Shown here piece after piece: positions 13,789 to 25,116 of a stretch of 64,000 bases of DNA. The stretch comes from an uncultured Sphingomonadaceae bacterium (GTDB lineage Bacteria > Pseudomonadota > Alphaproteobacteria > Sphingomonadales > Sphingomonadaceae). The translations under genes and the position numbers were made by a program. The DNA lies in the NCBI GenBank assembly GCA_947499255.1, contig CANMNF010000002.1:322430-386429 (forward strand), in the 5' to 3' direction. Numbering within the stretch: the stretch's first letter is position 1; each line of letters starts with the position of its first letter. Under the pieces are notes generated by a model, which saw only the letters and a program-made list of their open reading frames with translations, was not told the DNA's origin and searched no databases.

Positions 13789-14492
13789 GGGCAAGCGCCC
13801 GGATCAACCATTTGCGCCTCGGCAATAAGGCCCGCTTCGCTGTATTGATCGGCAATCCGCTGCAGCACGCCGCAGCTCAGCTCAGCGCCTTGCTCCTGCG
13901 CCAAGGCCAATGTTGGGGCCAGATCAGCAGGCGCGATTTCGTTGCGAACCCGGTTTAACAACGCGTCCTGCCAACGCCCTTCGCCTGCCAAACGTTGGGC
14001 AAAAGCTTCACGGCCACCTTCGCTGGTCAGCAAAATAGCAAGGCCCGCCGCGCTTTGATCGGGTACCAAGCCGGTGGCGAACAAGGCATTGAGGCGCAAA
14101 GCGGCAGCTTCATGCGCGCCATCGGCCAAGGCTGCTTGTGCCGCCGCCATTTGCGCCAATGGATCACGCCAGCCGCGCTTGGTAGCCGCTTCCAAGGTGG
14201 CGATCGCAGCATCGTTCTGACCTGCCTGGATTTGCGCTTGGGCCAGCAGCGTGAGATGTTCAGCGGGAACGGGACGCGCTGCCACGAGCGCGCGGGCAGC
14301 GGCAAGCGATGCTTCGCCTTCTTGTGCCAACACAGCGCGCTGCGCGGTCCGCTCCGCTGCAAAGCCTGCGAAAGCCTGCGGCACCAAAACCGAGTAAGAT
14401 GGTGTGAACCGCGTAGACCTGTCCAATTGCGCGAATACGGTGACAACCGCGATAATGCTCAAAACGGCCCACCAGATAGAGCGTGCAATCAT
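13785..14492 (-). CDS. Membrane-anchored TPR-like protein of the O-antigen ligase pair
   Basis: About 235 residues: an N-terminal membrane anchor (IWWAVLSIIAVVTVFAQL), then alanine-rich helical repeats typical of tetratricopeptide folds (LTLLAQAQIQAGQNDAAIAT, DPLAQMAAAQAALADGAHEA). I do not recognise a named family. ATG at 14492 overlaps the stop of the O-antigen ligase-like gene by ATGA (14489-14492), so the two are translated together and probably act together. It is likely a periplasmic scaffold for a polymerase or ligase, which is inference. Confidence 0.7.
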   Translation of the reverse strand: MIARSIWWAVLSIIAVVTVFAQLDRSTRFTPSYSVLVPQAFAGFAAERTAQRAVLAQEGEASLAAARALVAARPVPAEHLTLLAQAQIQAGQNDAAIATLEAATKRGWRDPLAQMAAAQAALADGAHEAAALRLNALFATGLVPDQSAAGLAILLTSEGGREAFAQRLAGEGRWQDALLNRVRNEIAPADLAPTLALAQEQGAELSCGVLQRIADQYSEAGLIAEAQMVDPGACP

Positions 14493-15856
14493 GATCGCGC
14501 CTCCCGTGGCCGGACCAGCAAGATGATGAGGAGCGCTGCAACACACAGCAAGGTCTGGTTACGCAGCGGATAGTCCAGAACGGACTGTAAAGAGATAGCA
14601 GCGATGCCAATGCTCGCTGCAATGGCAAGCCAATTGTCATCGCGCCCTTTGCCAACAGTAGGCTGCCAGGCGCACCACAAAAGCCACGCGAGTATCAAGA
14701 CCAAACCAACCCCGCCCGCTTCAAGCCCAACTTCGAGATAATCATTGTGCATACGTCCTGCACGCTTTTGCGTGACATATTCCAGCGATTCGTAAGCCTG
14801 ATACACTTCATCAAAAGTGCCCATGCCCGATCCCACAGGCCAGTATTGCGCAGCGGCATATTGCCCATCTTCCCACATGGTCAGGCGATCATTTTCGATG
14901 GTCTCAAGGCGTTCCAGCGTCTCGCCAACACGTCCACCGGTCGAAAAAGAAGCGAAAGCCAGCCCGGCAATAAGAACCGCAAAACCGCCTGCCACAAGGC
15001 TGGCCGGAGTAAGTGCAGGCGCACTGCCTTTGCGCGCAGCCCATAATCCAAACCCGGCACGCAAAACTATCAGGCCAACAGGCAGCGCGAGCAGCACCAG
15101 GCTTGAGCGTGATTGGGTAAGCAGTGCGCCAAGGAACAGAAGCGAGCCCGCCGCGACCATCGCCAGCAACCATTCGCGCCTGCGCGGAACGGGCAGAGCA
15201 GCTGTCAAAAGCAGCGCGAGGATGAAGAACAGTCCTGTAGAATTGCGATTCGCAAAACTGGCATACAAAACGCCTTCCTTGGGATTGATAGGGAACAGCA
15301 TCGCGGTGGTATTGGCCGCTGAAATTTGCACGACGCCTAACAATATGGCCGCCAAAGCCGCACCGGCGAAAGTGAGGACAAGGTGCAACTTGGCCTTGTC
15401 ATCCAATCGCGATCCGATGGCGATAATCGCGGCCGGCGCTAATGTCCCGCAAAAGGCGACCAGGGTGCGAGCGCGATCAACGCTAATCGGGTGCCAGCTT
15501 GCTGGATCGAGGCCAGCAATTGCCAGGCTTTCTGCAATCATGTCGCGTCCGGGAAGCGCCTGCCATATCGCGGCGGGAAGCGGGATAAGCTGGACCAGCG
15601 GCACAGCCATGCTTACCACGACCAATACCACAAGCATGCGCGGACCCTTGCGAACAAAATCTGCAATGCGGGACGGGTTAGCAGCGCAAATCGCCAGCGC
15701 GGCAAGTTGGATGACCGCATTGCGCAGCCCATATCCAACGCCGCCGCCGCCCAGTGCAACGCTAAGGACAATTAACAATTGCAAATGGAGCACAGTGGAG
15801 CGCCACCAGCTCTCACTTGCGCGGTCAGCCTGCTCTCGCTCTAGAAGTCCCGACAT
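14489..15856 (-). CDS. O-antigen ligase family protein
   Basis: A 455-residue protein with about a dozen hydrophobic segments and the Wzy_C/WaaL signature in its periplasmic loop: FANRNSTGLFFILAL near residue 203 and GSGMGTFDEVYQAYE with the nearby RMHNDYLEVGLEAG (conserved His) near residues 345-380. Such proteins ligate or polymerise O-antigen or exopolysaccharide. This is the second of three Wzy/WaaL-like proteins in the window. It precedes the TPR-like gene with an ATGA overlap. A bidirectional terminator lies upstream of its start. Confidence 0.85.
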   Translation of the reverse strand: MSGLLEREQADRASESWWRSTVLHLQLLIVLSVALGGGGVGYGLRNAVIQLAALAICAANPSRIADFVRKGPRMLVVLVVVSMAVPLVQLIPLPAAIWQALPGRDMIAESLAIAGLDPASWHPISVDRARTLVAFCGTLAPAAIIAIGSRLDDKAKLHLVLTFAGAALAAILLGVVQISAANTTAMLFPINPKEGVLYASFANRNSTGLFFILALLLTAALPVPRRREWLLAMVAAGSLLFLGALLTQSRSSLVLLALPVGLIVLRAGFGLWAARKGSAPALTPASLVAGGFAVLIAGLAFASFSTGGRVGETLERLETIENDRLTMWEDGQYAAAQYWPVGSGMGTFDEVYQAYESLEYVTQKRAGRMHNDYLEVGLEAGGVGLVLILAWLLWCAWQPTVGKGRDDNWLAIAASIGIAAISLQSVLDYPLRNQTLLCVAALLIILLVRPREARS

Positions 15857-16372: not shown

Positions 16373-16846
16373 CTAGAAAAGCACCGTATATTGCGAAATA
16401 TCTCCGCCTGTTATCACTTTGCCATCATGTTCCAACCACGCATGAGCGCCAAAAGGCTTATCGTGTGGGCGCTCTACACCGATGACGATTCGGCTTGCGA
16501 TCCCCTCATCGGCTAACCATGATTGCGCTCCTGTCGCCTGTATCAGGCAGTCTGACCGAAATGGCATGAGCGGCGCAATGCGCGGGACAACAAACGCAAC
16601 GCGGTCTATGATTAGTGGGCGGTCACCGTTTGGTGGCTCAGAAACCAGGGTATCAACCGCACCAGCTTGCCCCAAATCACAACTGCGCTGGTGCAGATCG
16701 CCGATATCAAGATCACCAAACCGGCGACGTGCTTTCACCAATTCGCGAATCGCGCGCCAGCCATAGCGCAGCAGCCAGCCACCATCGCGCGGGCGGACAT
16801 GGCGCCATCTGGTAGGCACGCCAGTTGCAGTACGGTTAGATGACAT
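16373..16846 (-). CDS. Lasso peptide biosynthesis B2 protein (leader peptidase)
   Basis: About 157 residues, normal for a stand-alone B2 protein, a transglutaminase-like cysteine protease that cuts the leader from the precursor. The catalytic triad is recognisable in the C-terminal half: Cys100 (SDCLIQATGAQSWLADEG), His135 in GAHAWLE, and an acidic residue at 139-141 (EHDGKVI). The start is uncertain: ATG at 16846 follows GGAAGAGG by a few bases, while ATG at 16858 follows GGAG. The frame is open upstream to 17071, into the cyclase gene, but without homology. It is divergent from the cyclase gene. Confidence 0.85.
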   Translation of the reverse strand: MSSNRTATGVPTRWRHVRPRDGGWLLRYGWRAIRELVKARRRFGDLDIGDLHQRSCDLGQAGAVDTLVSEPPNGDRPLIIDRVAFVVPRIAPLMPFRSDCLIQATGAQSWLADEGIASRIVIGVERPHDKPFGAHAWLEHDGKVITGGDISQYTVLF

Positions 16847-16854
16847 CACCTCTT

Positions 16855-16878
16855 CCATGTCATCGCTCCATGTCATCG
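16855..16878. repeat. Tandem 11-bp direct repeat at the B2 gene start
   Basis: CCATGTCATCG occurs at 16855-16865 and again at 16868-16878, period 13. Both copies lie in the divergent region between the B2 and cyclase genes and include candidate B2 start codons on the minus strand. It could be an operator for the lasso genes or a chance duplication shifting the B2 start. Confidence 0.45.
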
Positions 16879-17023
16879 CAGCGCCGCAAGGCCAAGAGGC
16901 AACAGGCGCAGCTAATGTGCTTGCAACACCACACTGATCGCCTGCACATGGGCACAATCGCTGGTTCCGCTTTATCACATTCGGCCCAGCGCATGCGAGC
17001 GATACAGGTAACAGGGCCCAGTT

Positions 17024-18913
17024 TTGAGCGGAATAGCAGCCATAATTCGGTTTGATGGCGGACCAGCACATGCACCCGCGCTGTCAGCAATGACCGACGC
17101 GATGGCCTATCGTGGGCCAGATGGAATTTCGCAATTTTGCGAAGGTCCAGCTGCCCTAGGCCATCTTGCAATGCATAGCACAGCAGAATCGCAGGATGGC
17201 GCGCAGCCACTGTCCAATGCAGATCAGACCGTTACGATTTCCATGGACGGCTATATCGCGAATTATGACGCGTTAAAAGCGGATCTGCTTGCGCGCGGTG
17301 CACGTTTGCGCAACCGATCAGAAGCTGAGCTTGTTTTGCATGCCTATGATCAATGGGGCGCTGATTGTCCGCGCCATATTGATGGCGAATACGCTTTTGT
17401 GATTTGGGACAAACGCAGCCGCACGGCCTTTTGCGCACGCGATCATCATGGGCTGCGTCCGCTGTTCTGGTATTGGGATGGCGCAAGCCTGGTTGTTGCC
17501 TCAGATATTGCCGGAGTGCTCGCGGCGCTTCCTGAAAAGCCTGCACTCAACCTCGCCTATCTTGGCGAGATTGCGATTGATGAAACCTTGTCGCCTGAAC
17601 AAACCGTGTGGTCCGGCGTGTATCGGTTGCGCAATGCGCATTGGCTGCGCGTCGATGGCAATGGTCCACAATTGCGCGAATATTGGGCTTTGCCGACCAA
17701 AGTCAGCATCCGGTACAAATCTGATGACGAATATGTTGAGCATTATCGCGCAGTGCTTGATGAATGCGTCCGGCAGGCATCGCGCACGCATTTGCCCTTA
17801 GGCTTTGAAGTCAGTGGAGGGCTTGATTCCTCATCGCTGTTTTGCATCGCGCATGAGCTGGAGAAAGCGGGCCGTCTGCCTGCACCGCGTATCGGAGGCT
17901 ACACGCTTGCCGGTCCTCAGGGATCGCAGGCCGATGAAGTGGGGTATGCGCGCGCGGTCGCAGATCATCTGGGCCGCGATTTGACCGCTGTCCCCTTGTT
18001 TCAACCGGGGCTGGACTGGTTTGCCCAGCGCGCTGCGCAGGATCAGGACATGCCCCCTTTCCCCAATGCGGCAATGTCGATCAATATGGACCGCGCGATT
18101 CGCGCCGATGGTGCGCGCGTTGCAATCAACGGCGTTGGCGGTGATCAATGGCTGGACGGCACGCATTTTTACTATCGCGAATTGATGGAGACCGGTGAGT
18201 GGCGCAGCCTTATCGAAAGCTATCGCGAAGACCGCGCGCTTATGGGCTTTGCCGAGGCGACGAAATTGTTCGCGCGCCTTGGGCCAGGTTCGTATCTGCC
18301 GCGCGCGTTGCGCCAGCTTCGCCGCCGGGTGACAGGTGATGATGAGCGAGATTGGCGCGGCGAAACATCATGGCTCAAACCAGAGCTGCAAGCCGTGTTG
18401 AACGAGCGGATCGCGCGCTATGACGAAAGCTTCCCGACAGAATATCGCGATAGCTACAAGCTGCGGAAACTCAAATTGCCGCGCTGGACGCAAATCCTCG
18501 ATCTCATTTCACGCCAGCGCGCGCGCGAGGGATTGGAGAACCGCAGCCCGATGATGTCGCGCGCATTTATCGAATTTAGCGCCGCGACACCCGAACGCAC
18601 CAGATTGCGAGGCGGAATAACCAAGTATATTCACCGAAAATCGCTGTTGGGGCTTTTGCCAGAAGAGATCATCAATCGCTTCACAAAGGCTGAGTTTAGT
18701 ACGGTTTATGATTCGCTGGAATCGCAGCTACGGGAAGAATGCGTTGTAAATCCGTCCCAAAATCTATCGAAAATAGCGAATATCGATGGATTACAGCACC
18801 TTTTCGATATTTTTCGCGATACATCAATTGACGAAAGGGATGTCGGCGGGGTATGGGGTATTTACGTATGTACACAAGTTTTGGGGCTTCGCGCCTCTCT
18901 AAGAAAGGATTAG
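17024..18913 (+). CDS. Lasso peptide cyclase C (asparagine synthetase homologue)
   Basis: A 629-residue asparagine synthetase B-like protein that in lasso pathways activates the core Asp/Glu side chain with ATP and closes the macrolactam. The N-terminal Ntn-type domain (residues 1-200) includes AYRGPDG and GEYAFVIWD, but residue 2 is Ser (MSGIAAI) where glutaminases have the catalytic Cys. The synthetase domain has the PP-loop FEVSGGLDSSSL near residue 264 and NGVGGDQWLDG near residue 367. The start is a TTG at 17024, preceded by AGGG. The precursor gene begins 5 nt after the stop. Confidence 0.92.
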   Translation: MSGIAAIIRFDGGPAHAPALSAMTDAMAYRGPDGISQFCEGPAALGHLAMHSTAESQDGAQPLSNADQTVTISMDGYIANYDALKADLLARGARLRNRSEAELVLHAYDQWGADCPRHIDGEYAFVIWDKRSRTAFCARDHHGLRPLFWYWDGASLVVASDIAGVLAALPEKPALNLAYLGEIAIDETLSPEQTVWSGVYRLRNAHWLRVDGNGPQLREYWALPTKVSIRYKSDDEYVEHYRAVLDECVRQASRTHLPLGFEVSGGLDSSSLFCIAHELEKAGRLPAPRIGGYTLAGPQGSQADEVGYARAVADHLGRDLTAVPLFQPGLDWFAQRAAQDQDMPPFPNAAMSINMDRAIRADGARVAINGVGGDQWLDGTHFYYRELMETGEWRSLIESYREDRALMGFAEATKLFARLGPGSYLPRALRQLRRRVTGDDERDWRGETSWLKPELQAVLNERIARYDESFPTEYRDSYKLRKLKLPRWTQILDLISRQRAREGLENRSPMMSRAFIEFSAATPERTRLRGGITKYIHRKSLLGLLPEEIINRFTKAEFSTVYDSLESQLREECVVNPSQNLSKIANIDGLQHLFDIFRDTSIDERDVGGVWGIYVCTQVLGLRASLRKD

Positions 18914-18918
18914 CTTCG

Positions 18919-19077
18919 ATGACCGACGTCAACACAGCCAAGCAGTATCGCCGGCCCGAGCTTAAGGTTTATGGTTCCGTTCGTAATCTCACCGGCGGCA
19001 GCTCCGGTTCGATGAACGATGGTACCGGCATTCAGACTTTGCAGTCTCGCTTCTTCCCAGGCGGCCGGGTTTCGTAA
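18919..19077 (+). CDS. Lasso peptide precursor
   Basis: A 52-residue precursor. The leader carries the B1-recognition pattern YRRPELKVYGSVRNLT (residues 10-25; Tyr, Pro, Leu, Tyr-Gly, Leu-Thr), with Thr25 at the conserved -2 position. The predicted core is residues 27-52. It starts GSSGSMND, so Gly27 would be joined to Asp34, the only acidic residue in the core and at position 8. A tail GTGIQTLQSRFFPGGRVS follows. Bulky Arg-Phe-Phe residues could act as plugs. The C-terminal residue is Ser. ATG at 18919 follows AAAGGA. A UUCG-loop terminator follows 50 nt downstream. Confidence 0.93.
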   Translation: MTDVNTAKQYRRPELKVYGSVRNLTGGSSGSMNDGTGIQTLQSRFFPGGRVS

Positions 19078-19121
19078 CCTTTTTGGTATGGTTGGCCCTC
19101 GGGCCTTCATCCATGCAAAAC

Positions 19122-19157
19122 AAGGCGGCTGTTCTTCGGAACGGCCGCTTTTGTTTT
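19122..19157 (+). terminator. Rho-independent terminator with UUCG tetraloop after the precursor
   Basis: Arms GCGGCTGTTC and GAACGGCCGC (19125-19134, 19139-19148; one G-U pair) flank a TTCG loop, followed by TTTTGTTTTG. This very stable structure 45-70 nt behind the precursor stop would end or stabilise a short cyclase-precursor transcript and limit read-through to the methyltransferase, kinase and B1 genes. Confidence 0.85.
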
Positions 19158-19161
19158 GCCT

Positions 19162-19198
19162 GCTGTCTTTTCTAAAGCCCGCTGCCTTTTCTAAAGCC
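19162..19198 (+). repeat. Tandem 18-bp repeat behind the lasso precursor
   Basis: GCTGTCTTTTCTAAAGCC (19162-19179) is repeated at 19181-19198 with one mismatch and a period of 19. It sits between two hairpins upstream of the methyltransferase gene. It may be a slippage duplication of the 3' side of a terminator or a repeated protein-binding site. Confidence 0.6.
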
Positions 19199-19222
19199 TG
19201 TTGGCAAACCAAGCTTGGGCTT
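19193..19222 (+). terminator. Second terminator-like hairpin before the methyltransferase
   Basis: AAAGCC pairs with GGCTTT, with an inner TTGG-CAAA-CCAA stem, and a TTTTTAAT run follows. Its start overlaps the second copy of the tandem repeat. With the UUCG hairpin this gives two potential stops in the 174 nt between precursor and methyltransferase. Confidence 0.45.
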
Positions 19223-19251
19223 TTTAATAAGGCTTTGCTAGATCGCGGGTA

Positions 19252-20193
19252 ATGTCAGCGATTCTCAACGAACATCTGAACTATCTTGCGCTTGCTGGCC
19301 GTAGCGAGACCTATAATCGCGCGATCGCCAAATCGATTCGAGAAGGCGATGTTGTGGCCGATCTTGGCTGCGGCTTTGGTGTCTTGGGGCTTGCCTGCCT
19401 GCGCGCCGGTGCATCACATATTTATGGCATTGATCGTTCCGATGCGATTGAAATTGCGCGCGAAACGGTTCGCCGCGAAGGCTTGGAAGACCGTTATACC
19501 TGCATTCGGGGATCGACATACGATACCGATTTGCCGCAACCGGTGGATGCCATCATTTGTGATCACATTGGCTGGTTCGGCTTTGATTATGGCATCATCG
19601 CGATGCTGCGCGATGCCAAGAAACGGCTGCTGAAACCCGGCGGCACTATCCTTCCACGCACGTTGCAGCTGATGATTGCCAGCACCGATTCGCACGATGC
19701 CCGCAATCTGGCGGATGCTTGGCAGCGCGATCCTGTCCCCCAAGAATATCGCTGGCTCGATAGCCATGGGCTCAACACCAAACACGCCCACAATTTCACA
19801 GTCGAAGAAATCGCCAGCGCGCCGCAAATGCTCGGCGAAATCGATCTCACCGCTGATGAGCCTGATGAATTCATCTTCTCGGCAACGCTAACTGCTGCGC
19901 GTGCGCATACAATGCAAGGTATCGCGGGATGGTTTGCTTGCGAATTGGCGCAGGATGTGTGGCTGACCAATTCGCCCATTGCCGAAGGCGCAATCGCCCG
20001 CAATCAGGTGTATCTGCCATGCCGCAAACCCATCGCATTGGCGGCGGGAGACGAAGTGCAGGTCACTTTGCGCTTCCGGTTTGACAATGAGATGTTCGTT
20101 TGGAGCATACGCGGCCCCGATGGTCGGCGGCAGAAAATGTCGACTTGGAAAAGCCTTATTCTGAACAAAGATGATCTGGGGCAAAGCGCGTAA
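19252..20193 (+). CDS. PRMT-like SAM-dependent methyltransferase of the lasso locus
   Basis: A 313-residue class I methyltransferase. Motif I is VVADLGCGFGVLGLACLRAGA (about residues 33-53), followed by an acidic residue in IYGIDRS. The arrangement, including KKRLLKPGGTILPRT (near residue 125) and a C-terminal beta-barrel-like half, resembles protein arginine methyltransferases. The 'double-E' loop is altered: the usual SE-x-MG-x6-E reads CDHIGWFGFDYG, with Asp in place of both Glu. The stop overlaps the kinase start by 1 nt (TAATG). Likely substrate is the precursor or the mature lasso peptide; modification of an Arg is only a hypothesis. Confidence 0.8.
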   Translation: MSAILNEHLNYLALAGRSETYNRAIAKSIREGDVVADLGCGFGVLGLACLRAGASHIYGIDRSDAIEIARETVRREGLEDRYTCIRGSTYDTDLPQPVDAIICDHIGWFGFDYGIIAMLRDAKKRLLKPGGTILPRTLQLMIASTDSHDARNLADAWQRDPVPQEYRWLDSHGLNTKHAHNFTVEEIASAPQMLGEIDLTADEPDEFIFSATLTAARAHTMQGIAGWFACELAQDVWLTNSPIAEGAIARNQVYLPCRKPIALAAGDEVQVTLRFRFDNEMFVWSIRGPDGRRQKMSTWKSLILNKDDLGQSA

Positions 20194-21047
20194 TGCCATT
20201 GCAATTGCAAACTGGTGAGCCGCGCGCTCAGGCCCCATTGCCTGATCGACCCTTTGATCATTGGGTGACAGCTGATGGCGATGTGGCGGCAGAATTTTAC
20301 CGTTCGGGTGAAGGCGCATTCCTCGTGCGCTTTCCTGATCAGGCCGATTTTGAAATCACCCTTGGCAATGAAAGCCTTCGCGCTTTTCCGCTGCCCGATT
20401 TGTCCGCGCCGGCGCTGGAGACGCTTTACCGCAATTCCGTTTTGCCTATCATCGGCAACCATCTGGGCGGGTTGAATTTGCATGGTAGCGCGGTCGCAAC
20501 GCCGCATGGCGCACTCGCCTTCATGGGCCTTTCGCGTAGAGGCAAAACAACGCTGGCAGGCGCATTCGCGGCATCTGGCAATCCGTTTCTTACCGAGGAT
20601 ACTGTCGCGCTGGAGCCATCGGGTTCGGACTATCTGGTCCAGCCGATGCGGCCTGTCCTGCGCGTCTTTCATGATAGCGCGAGCTTCCTATTGGGCGATG
20701 CGCCGCAATGGGAGGATAGCGATGAAAAGCGCGAAGTGGATGCCAGCGGCACGTTGCCTTTCGCCAATGAACCCTCGCCGCTGCGCCATATTTTCCTGCT
20801 TGGTCCCGGCGAGGCGGAGACTATCACCATCGCCCGTTTGGGCGAAGCCGAAGCGATAGCCCAATTGATGCAACAAGCCTTTGTGCTGGACGTGGAAGAC
20901 AAGCCGCGCCTGCGCGCTCATTTTGAACGCGTGGCGAAGCTTGCTGGCACAGTGCCGTGTCATATGCTTGACTATCCGCGCCGCTATGATCAGTTGCCAC
21001 AAGTAATAGCGGCAATTTCGACGCTGAATACGCAAGGTGACGAATAA
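20193..21047 (+). CDS. HPr-kinase-like kinase of the lasso locus
   Basis: A 284-residue protein with the P-loop GLSRRGKTTL (Gly112 to Leu121) preceded by NLHGSAVATPHGALAFM, and the acidic FLTEDTVAL segment equivalent to the HprK metal/base site. In paeninodin-type clusters such enzymes phosphorylate the C-terminal Ser of the precursor. The precursor here ends in Ser52, so the same role is a direct inference. Length and order (methyltransferase-kinase-B1) with TAATG and zero-gap junctions show a tightly coupled operon. Phosphotransferase-system HPr is not suggested by the context. Confidence 0.85.
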   Translation: MPLQLQTGEPRAQAPLPDRPFDHWVTADGDVAAEFYRSGEGAFLVRFPDQADFEITLGNESLRAFPLPDLSAPALETLYRNSVLPIIGNHLGGLNLHGSAVATPHGALAFMGLSRRGKTTLAGAFAASGNPFLTEDTVALEPSGSDYLVQPMRPVLRVFHDSASFLLGDAPQWEDSDEKREVDASGTLPFANEPSPLRHIFLLGPGEAETITIARLGEAEAIAQLMQQAFVLDVEDKPRLRAHFERVAKLAGTVPCHMLDYPRRYDQLPQVIAAISTLNTQGDE

Positions 21048-21335
21048 ATGGAATTGAGCGATGTGGTCTGTGGCTCGGACGATGTGGTTGCGCGCGAAGT
21101 GGCCGGCGAAGCGGTTTTGCTCAACTTATCGAGCGGCACCTATTTCGGTCTGAATGATACTGGCAGCATGTTCTGGCAACTGATCGATGAAGACAGCGCC
21201 TCGCTTGCAGATATCTGCGATGCGATTGAAGAGGAATATGATGTCGATCGCGCCGATGTGGAACGGGATGTGATAGCATTGGCCGAAGAGCTAATCGAAC
21301 ACGGCCTGATTATGGTTGAGGATGAGGAAGACTAA
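21048..21335 (+). CDS. Lasso peptide B1 protein (PqqD-like leader-binding protein)
   Basis: A 95-residue RiPP recognition element of PqqD type: early beta strands (VVAREVAGEAVLLNLSSGTYFGLNDTGSMFWQLI) followed by a three-helix region (LADICDAIEEEYDVDRADVERDVIALAEELIEHGLI) and an acidic end. It binds the Tyr/Pro/Leu motif of the precursor leader and presents it to B2. The ATG directly follows the kinase stop codon without a gap. The stop overlaps the convergent ABC transporter gene by 4 nt. Confidence 0.92.
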   Translation: MELSDVVCGSDDVVAREVAGEAVLLNLSSGTYFGLNDTGSMFWQLIDEDSASLADICDAIEEEYDVDRADVERDVIALAEELIEHGLIMVEDEED

Positions 21336-23002
21336 ACCTCTTTTACCGCATCCACGCCGGGCACTTCATATGCGCCGCCATCGGCAATTTCGATAATCCT
21401 GTCGGCCAAAGCCAAGCTTGCACGGCGATGCGTGACAATAATCACGGTACGCCCGGTAAGCGCTGATCTGCACGCCTCCACAAACGCAGCTTCACCATCC
21501 AGATCATACATCGATGTCGCTTCATCGAAGATCAGGATTGGCGGATCGAGAATAAGCGCGCGGGCCAAAGCAATGCGCTGGCGCTGACCACCTGACAGCC
21601 TTACGCCGTGATCGCCAATCTGCGTGTCGAGGCCTTCGGGCAGATGCGCAACAAAATCCTGCGCCTGCGCCAGGCCCGCCGCCTTTGCGATTTGCGCATC
21701 GCTGACATCGTCCAAGCCAAAGGCTATATTGTCCCGCACGCTGCCATTAAACAGCAGCGCGCGTTGCGGGACCAGGCCGATTTGCCGCCGCAAATGCTGA
21801 ACCTGCAATGTGCCAATATCTGCGCCATCCAGCACAATTCGCCCCGATTGCGGCGCATAATAGCGCAGCAGCAGATGGATCAGCGTCGATTTGCCCGCAC
21901 CATTTTGGCCGGTCAGCGCGATAATTTCCCCCGGAGCAATGGCCAGATCGACATCGTGCAACGGCCCCTCACGCCCCGGATACGCGAAAGTGACTTTTTC
22001 AAACGCGATGCTCCCCGTTGACCGTGCAGGCACTGCGCCGCTGGCATATCCTTCCTCAATCGGTTCAGCGAGGACGCCTTCCAGCCGCTCCAACGTGCCG
22101 CGCGCCCATTGAAACTTGCCATAAAAATCTGCCAGCGCGCCAACCGGGCGCGTCAAAAGAGCAGCATAAAGGAGGAAGGCGAACAGCTCACCGGCGCTTT
22201 TTTCGTCAGAGACAAGTTCTTCACCCAAAACCAGGATCAGCAAAATTGCAGCAATCGCAGCCACCAATGCGATGATTGGGCCAAGCATGGCCGAAATGCG
22301 ATCCTGCGCAAAACTAAGCGCGCGCACCTCTTCGGCTAAATGGGCATAATTGCGGCGCTGGCGATCTTCCACGGCAAAGGATTTTATCGCGGGCAGCATC
22401 TCAAGATCTTCTTCCGCCGCCGTCATCAAAGCCGCATCAGCTGCCCGCGCGCGCGCTGCCAAAACCCGCAATCGTCGCCCCACCAGCTTCAGCGCAATCG
22501 TAAAGACTGGCACCAGCACCGGAATGAACAGCGCCAGCATGGGATCGATGGCGAACAACAGGATAATCGCGCCCAGCGCTGTCAACACCATGGAAGGCGC
22601 ACTGGCGAGCGTACTGGTGAGGAAAGTGCTGAGATTGTTGACCTCATAGGTCATCAAAGCCAGCAAATCGCCTTGCTTGCTGCGATCATGAAAGCCCATC
22701 GGCAGGCCTTGCACATGCGCATAAGCTTCCAGCCGAAGATCAGCGAGCACCCGGCCCGATGTCCGTGCAGATACGATGGCCGCCGCAATGCCCAGAACGC
22801 TGGTCAGCACCAAAGCGCCGATCAACAGGCCAACGATCAGCGGCAAATCAATCGCTCCATCAGCGATCACACCGCCCAACAATTGTCCGGCAAGCCACGG
22901 GATCGCCAGTAAGGCGAGCGAGCTGATCAGAGTGAGCGCGCTAATCAATGCGATTTGATTGCGATAAGGTGCAGCGCGGCGCAGCAGAAATCCGATCCCC
23001 AT
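21332..23002 (-). CDS. ABC transporter, fused membrane and ATPase domains, likely lasso exporter
   Basis: A 556-residue half-transporter: six hydrophobic segments in residues 1-300, then the ATPase domain. Walker A is TGQNGAGKST, the signature LSGGQRQRI, Walker B ILIFDEATS and the H-loop VTHRRAS, all intact. No N-terminal C39 peptidase domain is present, as expected for a lasso D protein, where B2 does the cleavage. It would act as a homodimer exporting the mature peptide and giving self-protection. Its ATG overlaps the nucleotidyltransferase stop (TGATG), so those two are coupled. Confidence 0.88.
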   Translation of the reverse strand: MGIGFLLRRAAPYRNQIALISALTLISSLALLAIPWLAGQLLGGVIADGAIDLPLIVGLLIGALVLTSVLGIAAAIVSARTSGRVLADLRLEAYAHVQGLPMGFHDRSKQGDLLALMTYEVNNLSTFLTSTLASAPSMVLTALGAIILLFAIDPMLALFIPVLVPVFTIALKLVGRRLRVLAARARAADAALMTAAEEDLEMLPAIKSFAVEDRQRRNYAHLAEEVRALSFAQDRISAMLGPIIALVAAIAAILLILVLGEELVSDEKSAGELFAFLLYAALLTRPVGALADFYGKFQWARGTLERLEGVLAEPIEEGYASGAVPARSTGSIAFEKVTFAYPGREGPLHDVDLAIAPGEIIALTGQNGAGKSTLIHLLLRYYAPQSGRIVLDGADIGTLQVQHLRRQIGLVPQRALLFNGSVRDNIAFGLDDVSDAQIAKAAGLAQAQDFVAHLPEGLDTQIGDHGVRLSGGQRQRIALARALILDPPILIFDEATSMYDLDGEAAFVEACRSALTGRTVIIVTHRRASLALADRIIEIADGGAYEVPGVDAVKEV

Positions 23003-24252
23003 CAGCGCGCACCAAGCCCCACGCTACGCAAAGCGATGCTGGCCAAGCGGCGCGCATGCAGCAATGGTGTGGGCCAACTGGAAGCACCCGGATATTTCTC
23101 ATGCAAATGCGTGCGCGCGGGGAAAGCATTGCCCAGCACAAAGCTTGCCTTCGCGCGCAATCCCTTGCTCGCCTGCAAATCGGTGAGAAATTCGCCGACT
23201 TGGCGGCTTTGCGTGAGATAGCGGGTCAATGCGGTTTCTTGTGGCGCCGCGCGTAGGGCTTGCAACACGTCTTGCGGGATCTCTGCCGCCAAATCGCGCT
23301 GCGCGGCTTCAAGCGCGGGCAGAACAATCCCGGCAAAATCGCGAGAAATGGCGATATCGGTCAAACGGGCCCAATCGATTGCGTCAAATTGCTGCGCCAA
23401 CAGGTGATTGTCGAGCGACCAGATCAAACGGTGGCCGCCCATCACCCGCTCTTCCCCGACGAAATACCCCTTTGCATTGTGCCATGCCTGATTGATTGCG
23501 CCTTGCACAAAGGTCAGCACATGCGGCGGCGCTTTAGCCCAAGGTGCCAGCCGAGGAAGATCGTGAGCCTCGGCAAAATATTCTGCGATTCGCAGCACCT
23601 GTTGCAATGCCGGGCTATCATTGGGTTGCCAATGCAGATCAATCGCGTGGATCATGCCGAACCCCGTGTCGAACAGCCATGTCTCTTGAAAAAACAGGCC
23701 ATGCGGGTCTTGTCGCCTGGTCCAGCCAGCAGCGCGCAGCACGGACCGGGTGGCGGCCAGATCATTGCCTTGCACCAGCAAATCAGTATCACCGCGCCTA
23801 CGCATCGCAGCATTATCATAGACACAATAGGCAAGCGCTGTGCCTTTCATCAGGCGCGTATCCACGCCACCTTTAGCGAGCGCCATCAACACCGGGACAA
23901 GCGCGGCTTTATGCGATTCTTCCCAGAAAACCTGCGATTGAGCATCGGCGCGAACGGCATCACAAAGATGCTGTGGCCAGCTGGCAAACGCTTTGGACTG
24001 TTCAGCCAGAACAAGCGCGATGCCGTGAAATTCGACCCGGCGCCACACTTGTTCCTGACACGTCCAGCCATCGGGCCACGCATCTCCTTCTCCCCGCAGC
24101 TGCGCTGCAAGAAATCCGTCTACGGCCTCTGGTGCCGGATCAAGGCTTTTCCCATCATCCACGAGCGACCTTCTAGCGCAGACTTGCGCCGCCGCCAGAG
24201 CCATGGGCAAAAAAGACACAAAGCTGTACCAGTTTGGACCCGCCATCGGCAT
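23002..24252 (-). CDS. Nucleotidyltransferase family protein of the lasso locus
   Basis: About 416 residues, of the uncharacterised nucleotidyltransferase type found in RiPP and polysaccharide loci. The core is LMKGTALAYCVYDNAAMRRR followed by GDTDLLVQGNDL, giving the two metal-binding Asp, and then ATRSVLRAAGW. A helical C-terminal half follows. The start is unsure: ATG at 24252 or 24246, or 24204 (MALAAAQVC); the frame is open to 24360 but would overlap the divergent glycosyltransferase. In the pseudomycoidin pathway a kinase and a nucleotidyltransferase act successively on the lasso C-terminus, which makes a tailoring role here plausible. Coupling to the exporter supports that. Confidence 0.75.
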   Translation of the reverse strand: MPMAGPNWYSFVSFLPMALAAAQVCARRSLVDDGKSLDPAPEAVDGFLAAQLRGEGDAWPDGWTCQEQVWRRVEFHGIALVLAEQSKAFASWPQHLCDAVRADAQSQVFWEESHKAALVPVLMALAKGGVDTRLMKGTALAYCVYDNAAMRRRGDTDLLVQGNDLAATRSVLRAAGWTRRQDPHGLFFQETWLFDTGFGMIHAIDLHWQPNDSPALQQVLRIAEYFAEAHDLPRLAPWAKAPPHVLTFVQGAINQAWHNAKGYFVGEERVMGGHRLIWSLDNHLLAQQFDAIDWARLTDIAISRDFAGIVLPALEAAQRDLAAEIPQDVLQALRAAPQETALTRYLTQSRQVGEFLTDLQASKGLRAKASFVLGNAFPARTHLHEKYPGASSWPTPLLHARRLASIALRSVGLGAR

Positions 24253-24345
24253 AGCAGAACGAGGCCTTGATCTGGCCAACTCAGGCGCGCCATGCCACAG
24301 GACCAATGCCGCGCCAGACAGCTGCCCGCACGAGTATCGAATGCC

Positions 24346-25116
24346 ATGACGACTTCGCAATTTTCGGTGATCGCTGCCCTCGATAATGAGGCGATTGCCG
24401 ATGCTTGTCTGCGCCGATCGCCCGATATCGCATCCGGCGCCATGCCGTTAAAAACGATCACAGGCGCAAGCAGCATGGCAAAAGCTTACAATAGCGGGCT
24501 TGATAGTACGCAATCCGATTATGCGGTTCTGGCGCACCAAGATGTGTATTTCCCCAAGGGCTGGCGCGATAAAGCAGCGCAGACCCTGGCCGATTTGACT
24601 GCGGCGCAGCCGGATTGGCTGGTTGCAGGCATTTATGGCGTTTCGCTGGAGGGCAAACATATTGGCCGCGCTTGGGACGTGACCATGGGTCTGGAGCTGG
24701 GGCATGGTGGGTTTGCGCCAACACCGGTGCAATCGCTGGATGAGCTGGTGCTGATCTTGCGGCGGGGCAGCGGATATCGCTTCGATGCAAACCTCCCGCA
24801 TTTCCACCTTTACGGCACCGATATTGTGCAATCCGCATGGGCTATGGGCCGCAGCGCTTGGGCGGTGGAGCTGCCCGTGGTGCACAATAACCGCCCGATT
24901 GTATCGCTCGCAGGCGGGTATTTGCAGGCGTATCGTTATGCGCGTGAGAAATGGCGCGACAAGCTGCCGATAGAAACTTGCGTGACGACGCTTACCCGCA
25001 ATCCGCTACCCTTATGGCGCGCACGCTGGCGGCGCAGACATGTGACACAGCGCGGGGCCGAATTACAGGCAGATGCGGTGGAAGTGGCAAAGGCGGCAGG
25101 CTATGAACCCGCCTGA
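24346..25116 (+). CDS. StrF-domain-type glycosyltransferase
   Basis: A 256-residue protein with the short GT2-like layout of StrF-type glycosyltransferases: FSVIAALDNEAIADACL, then ASSMAKAYNSGLD and AVLAHQDVYFPKGW (the HQDV acidic motif), and the acceptor-side FHLYGTDIVQSAW. It would transfer a sugar to a lipid-linked glycan, or possibly to the lasso peptide, next to whose genes it lies. ATG at 24346 is chosen because similarity begins there; the ribosome binding site is weak. The flippase starts 21 nt later, so it probably belongs to the polysaccharide group. Confidence 0.75.
   Translation: MTTSQFSVIAALDNEAIADACLRRSPDIASGAMPLKTITGASSMAKAYNSGLDSTQSDYAVLAHQDVYFPKGWRDKAAQTLADLTAAQPDWLVAGIYGVSLEGKHIGRAWDVTMGLELGHGGFAPTPVQSLDELVLILRRGSGYRFDANLPHFHLYGTDIVQSAWAMGRSAWAVELPVVHNNRPIVSLAGGYLQAYRYAREKWRDKLPIETCVTTLTRNPLPLWRARWRRRHVTQRGAELQADAVEVAKAAGYEPA

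Follow-up and report, generated by a model that had tools for sequence, protein, structure and literature searches.

A lasso peptide locus with a kinase, a nucleotidyltransferase and a PRMT-fold methyltransferase that may act on core methionine

What would a lasso peptide become if a kinase, a nucleotidyltransferase and a methyltransferase of the protein arginine methyltransferase (PRMT) type all acted on it, and which residue would the methyltransferase modify? The question is raised by a 64,000-nucleotide stretch (the window) of the 2.96 Mb genome of an uncultured Sphingomonadaceae bacterium (contig CANMNF010000002.1 of GCA_947499255.1), where a lasso locus of order B2-C-A-MT-K-B1-D-NT lies intact at 16373-24360. 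All eight genes are present where an earlier sequence-only reading had placed a complete lasso gene set, and B2, C, B1, D and NT have Pfam or NCBIfam matches. Across relatives, lasso precursors accompanied by the methyltransferase (MT) nearly always carry methionine in the core, and precursors of kinase-bearing loci without it rarely do. We therefore lean, with somewhat better than even confidence, towards core methionine as the methyl acceptor of this PRMT-fold family, which would yield S-methylmethionine sulfonium. Shown directly are the gene content, its recurrence in relatives, the predicted fold, the missing arginine-binding residues and the link between MT and core methionine. The genes and sites of the locus are as follows.

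16373..17071, minus strand: B2, leader peptidase, transglutaminase-like (NF033537 lasso_biosyn_B2, 62.1 bits against a cut-off of 33; PF13471)
17024..18913, plus strand: C, lasso cyclase, asparagine synthetase-like (PF00733, Asn_synthase; PF13537, GATase_7; TTG start)
18919..19077, plus strand: A, precursor of 52 residues (YxxPxL at -17 to -12, T(-2))
18919-18996, plus strand: leader of A, MTDVNTAKQYRRPELKVYGSVRNLTG, 26 residues (YxxPxL and T(-2) rules)
18997-19074, plus strand: core of A, GSSGSMNDGTGIQTLQSRFFPGGRVS, 26 residues (YxxPxL and T(-2) rules)
19000..19005, plus strand: codons of core Ser2 and Ser3, proposed kinase targets (Ser or Thr at position 2 or 3 in 86/87 cores)
19012..19014, plus strand: codon of core Met6, the sole core methionine and proposed methylation site (methionine statistics of cores)
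19122..19151, plus strand: terminator-like hairpin of 13 pairs between A and MT (weak)
19252..20193, plus strand: MT, PRMT-fold methyltransferase of 313 residues (profile, AlphaFold and Foldseek)
20193..21047, plus strand: K, HprK-related lasso kinase (weak HprK-related match; alignment to lasso kinases)
21048..21335, plus strand: B1, PqqD-like leader-binding protein (PF05402, 78.5 bits)
21332..23002, minus strand: D, ABC exporter (PF00664, PF00005)
23002..24360, minus strand: NT, NTP_transf_5 nucleotidyltransferase (PF14907, 83.6 bits; longest open reading frame, TTG start)

The precursor combines a YxxPxL leader and T(-2) with an Asp at core position 8, within the 7-9 range of the ring-closing Asp or Glu of lasso precursors, and B1, B2 and C stand beside it; by its genes the locus is a complete lasso peptide pathway, with a threaded product predicted. 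Numbered by the YxxPxL and T(-2) rules, the core reads GSSGSMND-GTGIQTLQSRFFPGGRVS, with the ring-closing Asp at position 8, Met6 in the ring as the only methionine, two Arg in the tail and a C-terminal Ser (Ser26). Position 8 is Asp or Glu in 77/87 cores, and the leader motif GSVRNLTG is common to the window and many relatives.

The earlier reading had taken the kinase, methyltransferase and nucleotidyltransferase for lasso tailoring genes, and would have given this up had they belonged to neighboring polysaccharide genes and occurred apart from lasso genes elsewhere. The same-order genome mining that it proposed found the opposite. Among the 396 genomes searched in the order, 24 (counting that of the window) have a homologue of MT at 1e-20, 19 of these close (at least 44% identity, again with the window) and 5 distant. 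In these 24 neighborhoods we found a lasso precursor in 21, the cyclase in 19, B1 in 19, B2 in 15 and D in 13, together with the kinase in 21 (a partial match in L047; L numbers denote loci) and NT in 18, with a weak match in L040 and a partial one in L042. L041 lies at a contig end, and L042 and L047 resemble orphans. Since MT recurs with lasso genes across the order, the grouping is not a matter of chance. Beyond the order, Caenimonas koreensis (Burkholderiales) has a similar gene set with no B2 match, and an Acidobacteria metagenome contig carries MT, K and B1.

To these loci were added those from a scan of genome contigs (at least 28 loci) and from kinase searches of the order (97/396 genomes at 1e-6, 28 of which reach 1e-40), the family (55/397 at 1e-25) and three genera at 1e-60 (21/40, 46/114 and 13/195). 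Strong kinase matches from the order and the three genera were all read, and weaker ones were sampled in part. Precursors were located through a leader motif blind to methionine, a few through reading frames. The resulting set holds 87 unique cores, counting that of the window. Of these, 60 come from loci where MT is intact and 27 from kinase loci in which MT is absent or, in L142, broken. Repeats of another contig were left out (L148, L152, L154, L172, L177, L179, L182, L184) or never entered (L113, L119, L120, L124), and the identical cores of L086 and L090 count once. Also left out were MT loci in which no precursor was found (L033, L042, L047, L122, L160), 14 partial matches (L126-L139) and 20 weak-kinase loci (L092-L111), mostly without a recognizable precursor; among the latter, L097 has a methionine-free precursor candidate and no MT, and in L092 and L108 a distant MT homologue stands without a precursor.

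Within this set, methionine occurs in the tail of 58/60 cores with an intact MT and of 1/27 cores without (Fisher 1e-18, a value that ignores kinship). Any core methionine is found in 59/60 against 2/27, ring methionine in 21/60 against 1/27, and methionine makes up 24.4% of 619 tail residues with MT and 0.8% of 266 without. Of the 20 residues, methionine shows by far the strongest MT-linked difference. No such excess appears outside the core, in leaders (3/970 residues with MT and 2/391 without, parsed set), kinases (1.29% and 1.17%) or cyclases (2.34% and 2.08%). Likewise, among precursors that bear a Peptidase_S74 domain, tail methionine is present in 8/8 with MT and 0/4 without.

A likelihood test on a cyclase tree of 72 loci also indicated correlated evolution of MT and tail methionine (likelihood ratio 30.6, p 3.7e-6, 4 degrees of freedom). 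The ratio remained 27.8-30.8 when the analysis was limited to the 57 rows of the main MT family, when the largest clade lacking MT was collapsed, leaving 59 rows, and when both restrictions were applied (44 rows). By parsimony MT changes nine times on this tree, in which some forks are weak. Individual genomes follow the same pattern. Genomes G277 and G392 each have a full cluster without MT whose precursor has no tail methionine (GSGTMFRDGAVNNSRF, methionine in the ring only) and, apart from it, a second precursor ending GMTMNP that adjoins an MT. The MT of L142 lacks about 93 residues, deleted in frame and including the D104 loop, and the core of this locus is methionine-free. In Caenimonas the MT is 41% identical and the core is SGSLTPTESMTMMMRKP. 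Of 17 MT-less genomes checked, 13 have no PRMT-like protein at 1e-15 and 4 have a distant one, with no lasso gene match within roughly 1.5 kb on either side of those four. The remaining MT-less genomes of the order sample have no MT at 1e-20, except for the separate precursor and MT pairs of G277 and G392.

Several loci extend the range of precursor arrangements. L115 and L179 (one contig) encode the core GSGGAMMDGMLMMSLPGGMMNMGMGNMGMGMGFF, with 12 methionines in 34 residues, and L178, L168, L162 and L143 have two or three different precursors per cluster, all with methionine. L038 and L039 each consist of a precursor and an MT with no other lasso gene matches within about 7 kb; both genomes have a full MT-less cluster at another site, an arrangement that suggests maturation in trans. 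Tails without MT contain Arg or Lys in 27/27 cases and tails with MT contain neither in 32/60. We do not rely on the idea that a methionine sulfonium replaces the charge of Arg, because the divergent MT group has both.

We next consider what kind of enzyme MT is. Its family profile matched PDB chains of PRMTs at 7.3e-45 over profile positions of about 8-279. An AlphaFold model (mean predicted local distance difference test, pLDDT, 93.8) retrieved only PRMTs among the 50 Foldseek matches listed (PRMT6, PRMT3, yeast HMT1 and PRMT1; E 3.5e-27 to 1e-25, template modeling score about 0.75-0.83), so its description as PRMT-like stands. In PRMTs the guanidinium is held by the Glu pair of the double-E loop, and the THW loop counts among the arginine-binding features. 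The profile alignment sets the first Glu against D104 (Asp in 44/44 rows) and the second against Y113 (Tyr in 38/38 main-family rows, the window included); six divergent rows have E in 3, Q in 2 and G in 1 at the second position. THW is not kept either: the aligned stretch is I-x-R-S-Q in the profile, with R250 in 38/38 main-family rows. A conserved STW(K) near residue 297 was considered as the THW loop and dropped, as the profile alignment puts THW elsewhere.

Arginine was rejected as the target of the main family on grounds of core composition and active-site residues. Arg is absent from 35/60 intact-MT cores, and in tails it is commoner without MT (10.5%) than with it (5.8%). Because so many cores are Arg-free and the arginine-binding features are lost, MT should not be taken for an arginine methyltransferase. 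The sequence-only reading had predicted a methylated product from a PRMT-like enzyme; methylation as such appears likely, and it is the arginine methylation of a typical PRMT that these observations speak against.

Most of the relatives' MTs end in a helical extension of roughly 65 residues, predicted to form three main helices and no strands, which is missing from the MTs of the window, L028, L042, L166 and L170. The idea that the extension is a full leader-binding domain (RRE), a PqqD-like winged helix with three beta strands, found no support: no strands are predicted, hhalign against B1 gave 4% probability, a PqqD model was matched at 0.1 or better by 12/31 MT members and only weakly (best 0.0011), and a fold search with the domain returned no significant match. 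Its loss does not track methionine content. L028, L166 and L170 have methionine-rich cores, and L042 has no precursor that we found.

No Pfam family matches the window kinase, and its NCBIfam match to an HprK-related model is weak (9.6e-6, far under the cut-off). In an alignment with 28 kinases from related lasso loci, H97, G112, G117, K118 and D136 are invariant in all 29 sequences, the window included; with H97, the P-loop lysine K118 and D136 kept, we retain its earlier assignment as an HprK-like kinase. The accompanying proposal that the C-terminus is phosphorylated is not supported by comparison with relatives. A C-terminal Ser, conserved in paeninodin-type substrates, ends only 2/87 cores, those of the window and L081, whereas Ser or Thr stands at position 2 or 3 in 86/87 (the exception is L145), mostly as Ser2 in the main group and at position 3 in the divergent group. 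BsfK of Bradymonas sediminis phosphorylates ring Ser3, with help from B1, in a precursor that ends in Asp (PMC10368454). SyanK, from Sphingobium in the same order as the window, phosphorylates a C-terminal Ser (PMC9266682). Since C-terminal Ser is rare, ring Ser or Thr is near-universal and BsfK acts on Ser3, ring Ser2 or Ser3 is the likelier kinase target by sequence and analogy; the window core offers Ser26 besides its ring Ser residues.

Several points weigh against methionine as the acceptor. The association between MT and methionine is no proof that methionine is methylated, and the product is a prediction from the genes. Our search of open-licence literature turned up no PRMT-fold methionine S-methyltransferase; MmtN acts on free methionine and has a Rossmann-like plus cap fold (PMC9135737). 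L045 has MT and no core methionine at all, and L144 has two tail methionines with no MT there or elsewhere in its genome at 1e-15. A test of independent pairs found five supported pairs on the cyclase tree (3.5 in line with the association, 0.1 against it and 1.4 with no difference; median p 0.125) and four on a tree of cyclase and kinase (3.6, 0.1 and 0.4; median p 0.125), which agrees in direction and has too few well-supported pairs for power. By its sequence the divergent MT group may still target Arg, with the second Glu kept in 3/6 rows and Arg in many cores. It is rather unlikely, in our judgment, that MT methylates some other group (the C-terminal carboxylate, as LasF and StspM do, a ring Asp, as PIMT-type enzymes do, a Ser phosphate or the backbone) in peptides whose methionine tails were selected otherwise, for instance as a flexible hydrophobic plug or for Cu(I) binding by M-x-M motifs. 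Copper is known to be bound by methionine-rich motifs, MT cores often contain M-x-M and MM, and almost every core has a ring Ser/Thr and an Asp/Glu; but MT-less cores share ring Ser, Asp and free C-termini and not the methionine, so these groups fail to explain why MT tracks methionine, and the deleted MT and methionine-free core of L142 and the two-precursor genomes point in the same direction. PRMT-type arginine methylation combined with C-terminal Ser phosphorylation would suit the window core, with its C-terminal Ser and two tail Arg, and would draw on a genuine PRMT relative whose divergent group keeps the second Glu in 3/6 rows and on the precedent of SyanK in the same order (PMC9266682). 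We consider it highly improbable in view of the 2/87 cores with C-terminal Ser, the 35/60 MT cores that are Arg-free, the commoner tail Arg without MT, the Tyr in 38/38 main-family rows and the lost THW. Still more improbable is that MT protects the producer by acting on a cellular target: MT does accompany a precursor in L038 and L039, where the rest of the lasso genes do not lie close by, but a tie to one core residue type would be unexpected of an immunity enzyme, and most MTs carry the short helical domain that weakly resembles PqqD, as if for leader binding, although its fold search gave nothing significant.

The window itself is atypical, and its MT could be a leftover that has lost its tail-methionine substrate, the product then being an unmethylated phosphorylated lasso peptide. 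The window breaks the tail-methionine rule, with only ring Met6 and two tail Arg. Its cyclase groups beside those of MT-less L150 and L151 with a support of 89 on the cyclase tree, and on the cyclase and kinase tree it falls in an unresolved group of eight with four MT-less or broken loci (among them L142, with its broken MT and methionine-free core) and three MT loci. Its MT lacks the C-terminal extension. We nonetheless regard a leftover enzyme as doubtful. The window MT retains 53/54 near-invariant positions, as do most of the 38 rows of the main family, and by its sequence is not visibly decaying; its stop codon overlaps the kinase start; the extension is also absent from L028, L166 and L170, whose cores are methionine-rich; and ring methionine is enriched with MT (21/60 against 1/27), which makes Met6 a fair candidate. 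With core methionine retained as the favored acceptor of the family, methylation of the window product at Met6 is possible, at a little under even confidence, and less sure than in relatives because Met6 is its only methionine.

We infer methionine as the acceptor, the order of the steps and all chemical products from sequence, and the pathway would run as follows. Precursor A would be produced, perhaps in excess owing to the weak hairpin downstream, and its leader bound by B1. K and MT would modify the linear precursor with B1 before folding, by analogy with BsfK, ThcoK, SyanK and StspM, whose substrates are precursors (PMC10368454, PMC8498205). K would phosphorylate ring Ser2 or Ser3, NT would act on that Ser phosphate, as PsmN does in pseudomycoidin, and MT would S-methylate core methionine, at tail positions and often several of them in most relatives and at ring Met6 in the window. 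B2 would then cleave after G(-1), C would join Gly1 to Asp8 and close the ring, and D would export the product. For the window peptide the mass calculated for the lasso is 2624.240, or 2704.206 with phosphate, 2638.256 with CH2, 2718.222 with the two together and 2880.275 with a hexose on top of these. The reading as a whole, in which a branch of the PRMT family turned from Arg to methionine, its products combine one to many sulfonium centers with ring phosphorylation and nucleotidyltransferase action, and the window peptide is triply tailored with its sulfonium at Met6, seems to us an even bet.

Lasso clusters with a kinase and a nucleotidyltransferase are already known from pseudomycoidin and bsf. 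We found no description in open-licence literature of a lasso cluster that joins a PRMT-like methyltransferase to this pair, in agreement with the earlier view that the triple set was undescribed. Nor did that literature yield a relevant paper on an arginine-methyltransferase-type enzyme in lasso peptide work, or an S-methylmethionine methyltransferase acting on ribosomally synthesized peptides under that name. The bsf cluster of B. sediminis (BsfA, B1, B2, C, D, K, N) resembles the window in placing a kinase and a nucleotidyltransferase beside A, B1, B2, C and D, and resembles the present cores in its ring hydroxyl residues and typical non-Ser C-terminus; it differs in that the seven genes listed for it include no methyltransferase and that the penultimate leader residue is Ile rather than Thr (PMC10368454). 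In pseudomycoidin, where PsmK accompanies PsmN and PsmN adds hexose to the phosphorylated Ser, the target is instead the C-terminal Ser, and a methyltransferase goes unmentioned in the part of the source at hand (PMC9266682). The window NT, a PF14907 protein beside a lasso kinase, is a candidate nucleotidyltransferase of the pseudomycoidin type. Paeninodin and SyanA (Sphingobium yanoikuyae, same order) share the HprK-type lasso kinase and, unlike the present relatives, have a conserved C-terminal Ser (PMC9266682, PMC8498205).

Methyltransferases also tailor lasso peptides in lassomycin (LasF), through StspM and, with a PIMT-type enzyme, in lihuanodin. Their products, some of them proposed, are a C-terminal methyl ester or an aspartimide, while the window MT belongs to the PRMT family, a distinction drawn by description (PMC9266682). 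PRMT1, PRMT3 and PRMT6 share the fold and profile of MT, but the main family has Tyr for the second Glu, does not keep THW and in most members has the helical extension. A chemical parallel is longipeptin A, a ribosomally synthesized and post-translationally modified peptide in which methionine is reported to be S-methylated to a sulfonium; it is not a lasso peptide, the assignment to LopH is unproven, and we compare it by description (PMC11285071). Lasso clusters have also been reported by type in an Erythrobacter pan-genome (PMC9723273).

Some gene calls in the window are approximate. The extent of B2 is that of the longest open reading frame, the 5' end of which C (17024..18913) overlaps, and the real B2 start probably lies inside 16373..17071. 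The top NCBIfam match of C is the lasso cyclase NF033535 (325 bits, under its cut-off of 525), the ATG of K shares the final base of the MT stop codon, and for NT the ATG at 24252 is likelier than the TTG of the longest frame. The hairpin 3' of A may allow the precursor to be made in excess over the enzymes; such sites show no excess in the region (5, against a mean of 6.3 in shuffles). To the left the cluster adjoins an O-antigen ligase-like gene (Wzy_C, 14489-15856), and to the right lie a weakly glycosyltransferase-like gene, slightly below the Pfam cut-off, and a polysaccharide flippase. A Wzy_C gene adjoins the lasso cluster in at least 38/59 MT loci and at least 25/28 MT-less or broken loci (lower bounds, as contig ends cut some stretches), so the lasso locus tends to stay within a polysaccharide region.

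Lastly, the survey brought up unusual precursors. In twelve of them a Peptidase_S74 domain (chaperone of endosialidase) of roughly 75 residues, exceeding the Pfam cut-off in every case, is fused straight after the core. These Peptidase_S74-fused precursors are:

L028:7091-7447
L029:8483-8839
L031:7092-7448
L080:7950-8333
L112:8621-8977
L141:4505-4858
L146:4459-4812
L150:5557-5919
L151:6924-7286
L183:8009-8374
L186:5423-5764 (coordinates begin at the leader Tyr, as the start was not located)
L188:8013-8378

All twelve domains open with S-D-x-x-x-K, in agreement with the Ser and Lys of the self-cleavage pair of Peptidase_S74; if the predicted cut falls just ahead of this Ser, the released cores would have the usual length. 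To our knowledge there is no earlier case of a self-cutting follower on a lasso precursor, and we found none linked to an endosialidase domain in open-licence literature. Elsewhere, an MT-less cluster at L149:900-1420 encodes two precursors with Cys in both ring and tail (GSAGRCHD...GGGTCGG and GSAGNCTD...GGNICGPQ), which makes a disulfide-braced lasso possible, and at L153:6850-7500 the precursor leader has an in-frame stop while the other lasso genes of the cluster were matched.

For lasso kinases, these comparisons mean that the phosphorylation site is not readable from a single core, since the C-terminal Ser of the window would mislead. For the methyltransferase, the system is genetically simple, with a predicted target residue and natural precursors that offer one to twelve candidate methionines, and it comes with natural controls in the MT-less and MT-broken loci and with a mass spectrometric signature. 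We found no lasso peptide with a sulfonium in open-licence literature; if our reading is true, this would be the first such family found there, and methionine as the target of a PRMT-fold enzyme would represent a new specificity in a family studied as arginine methyltransferases.

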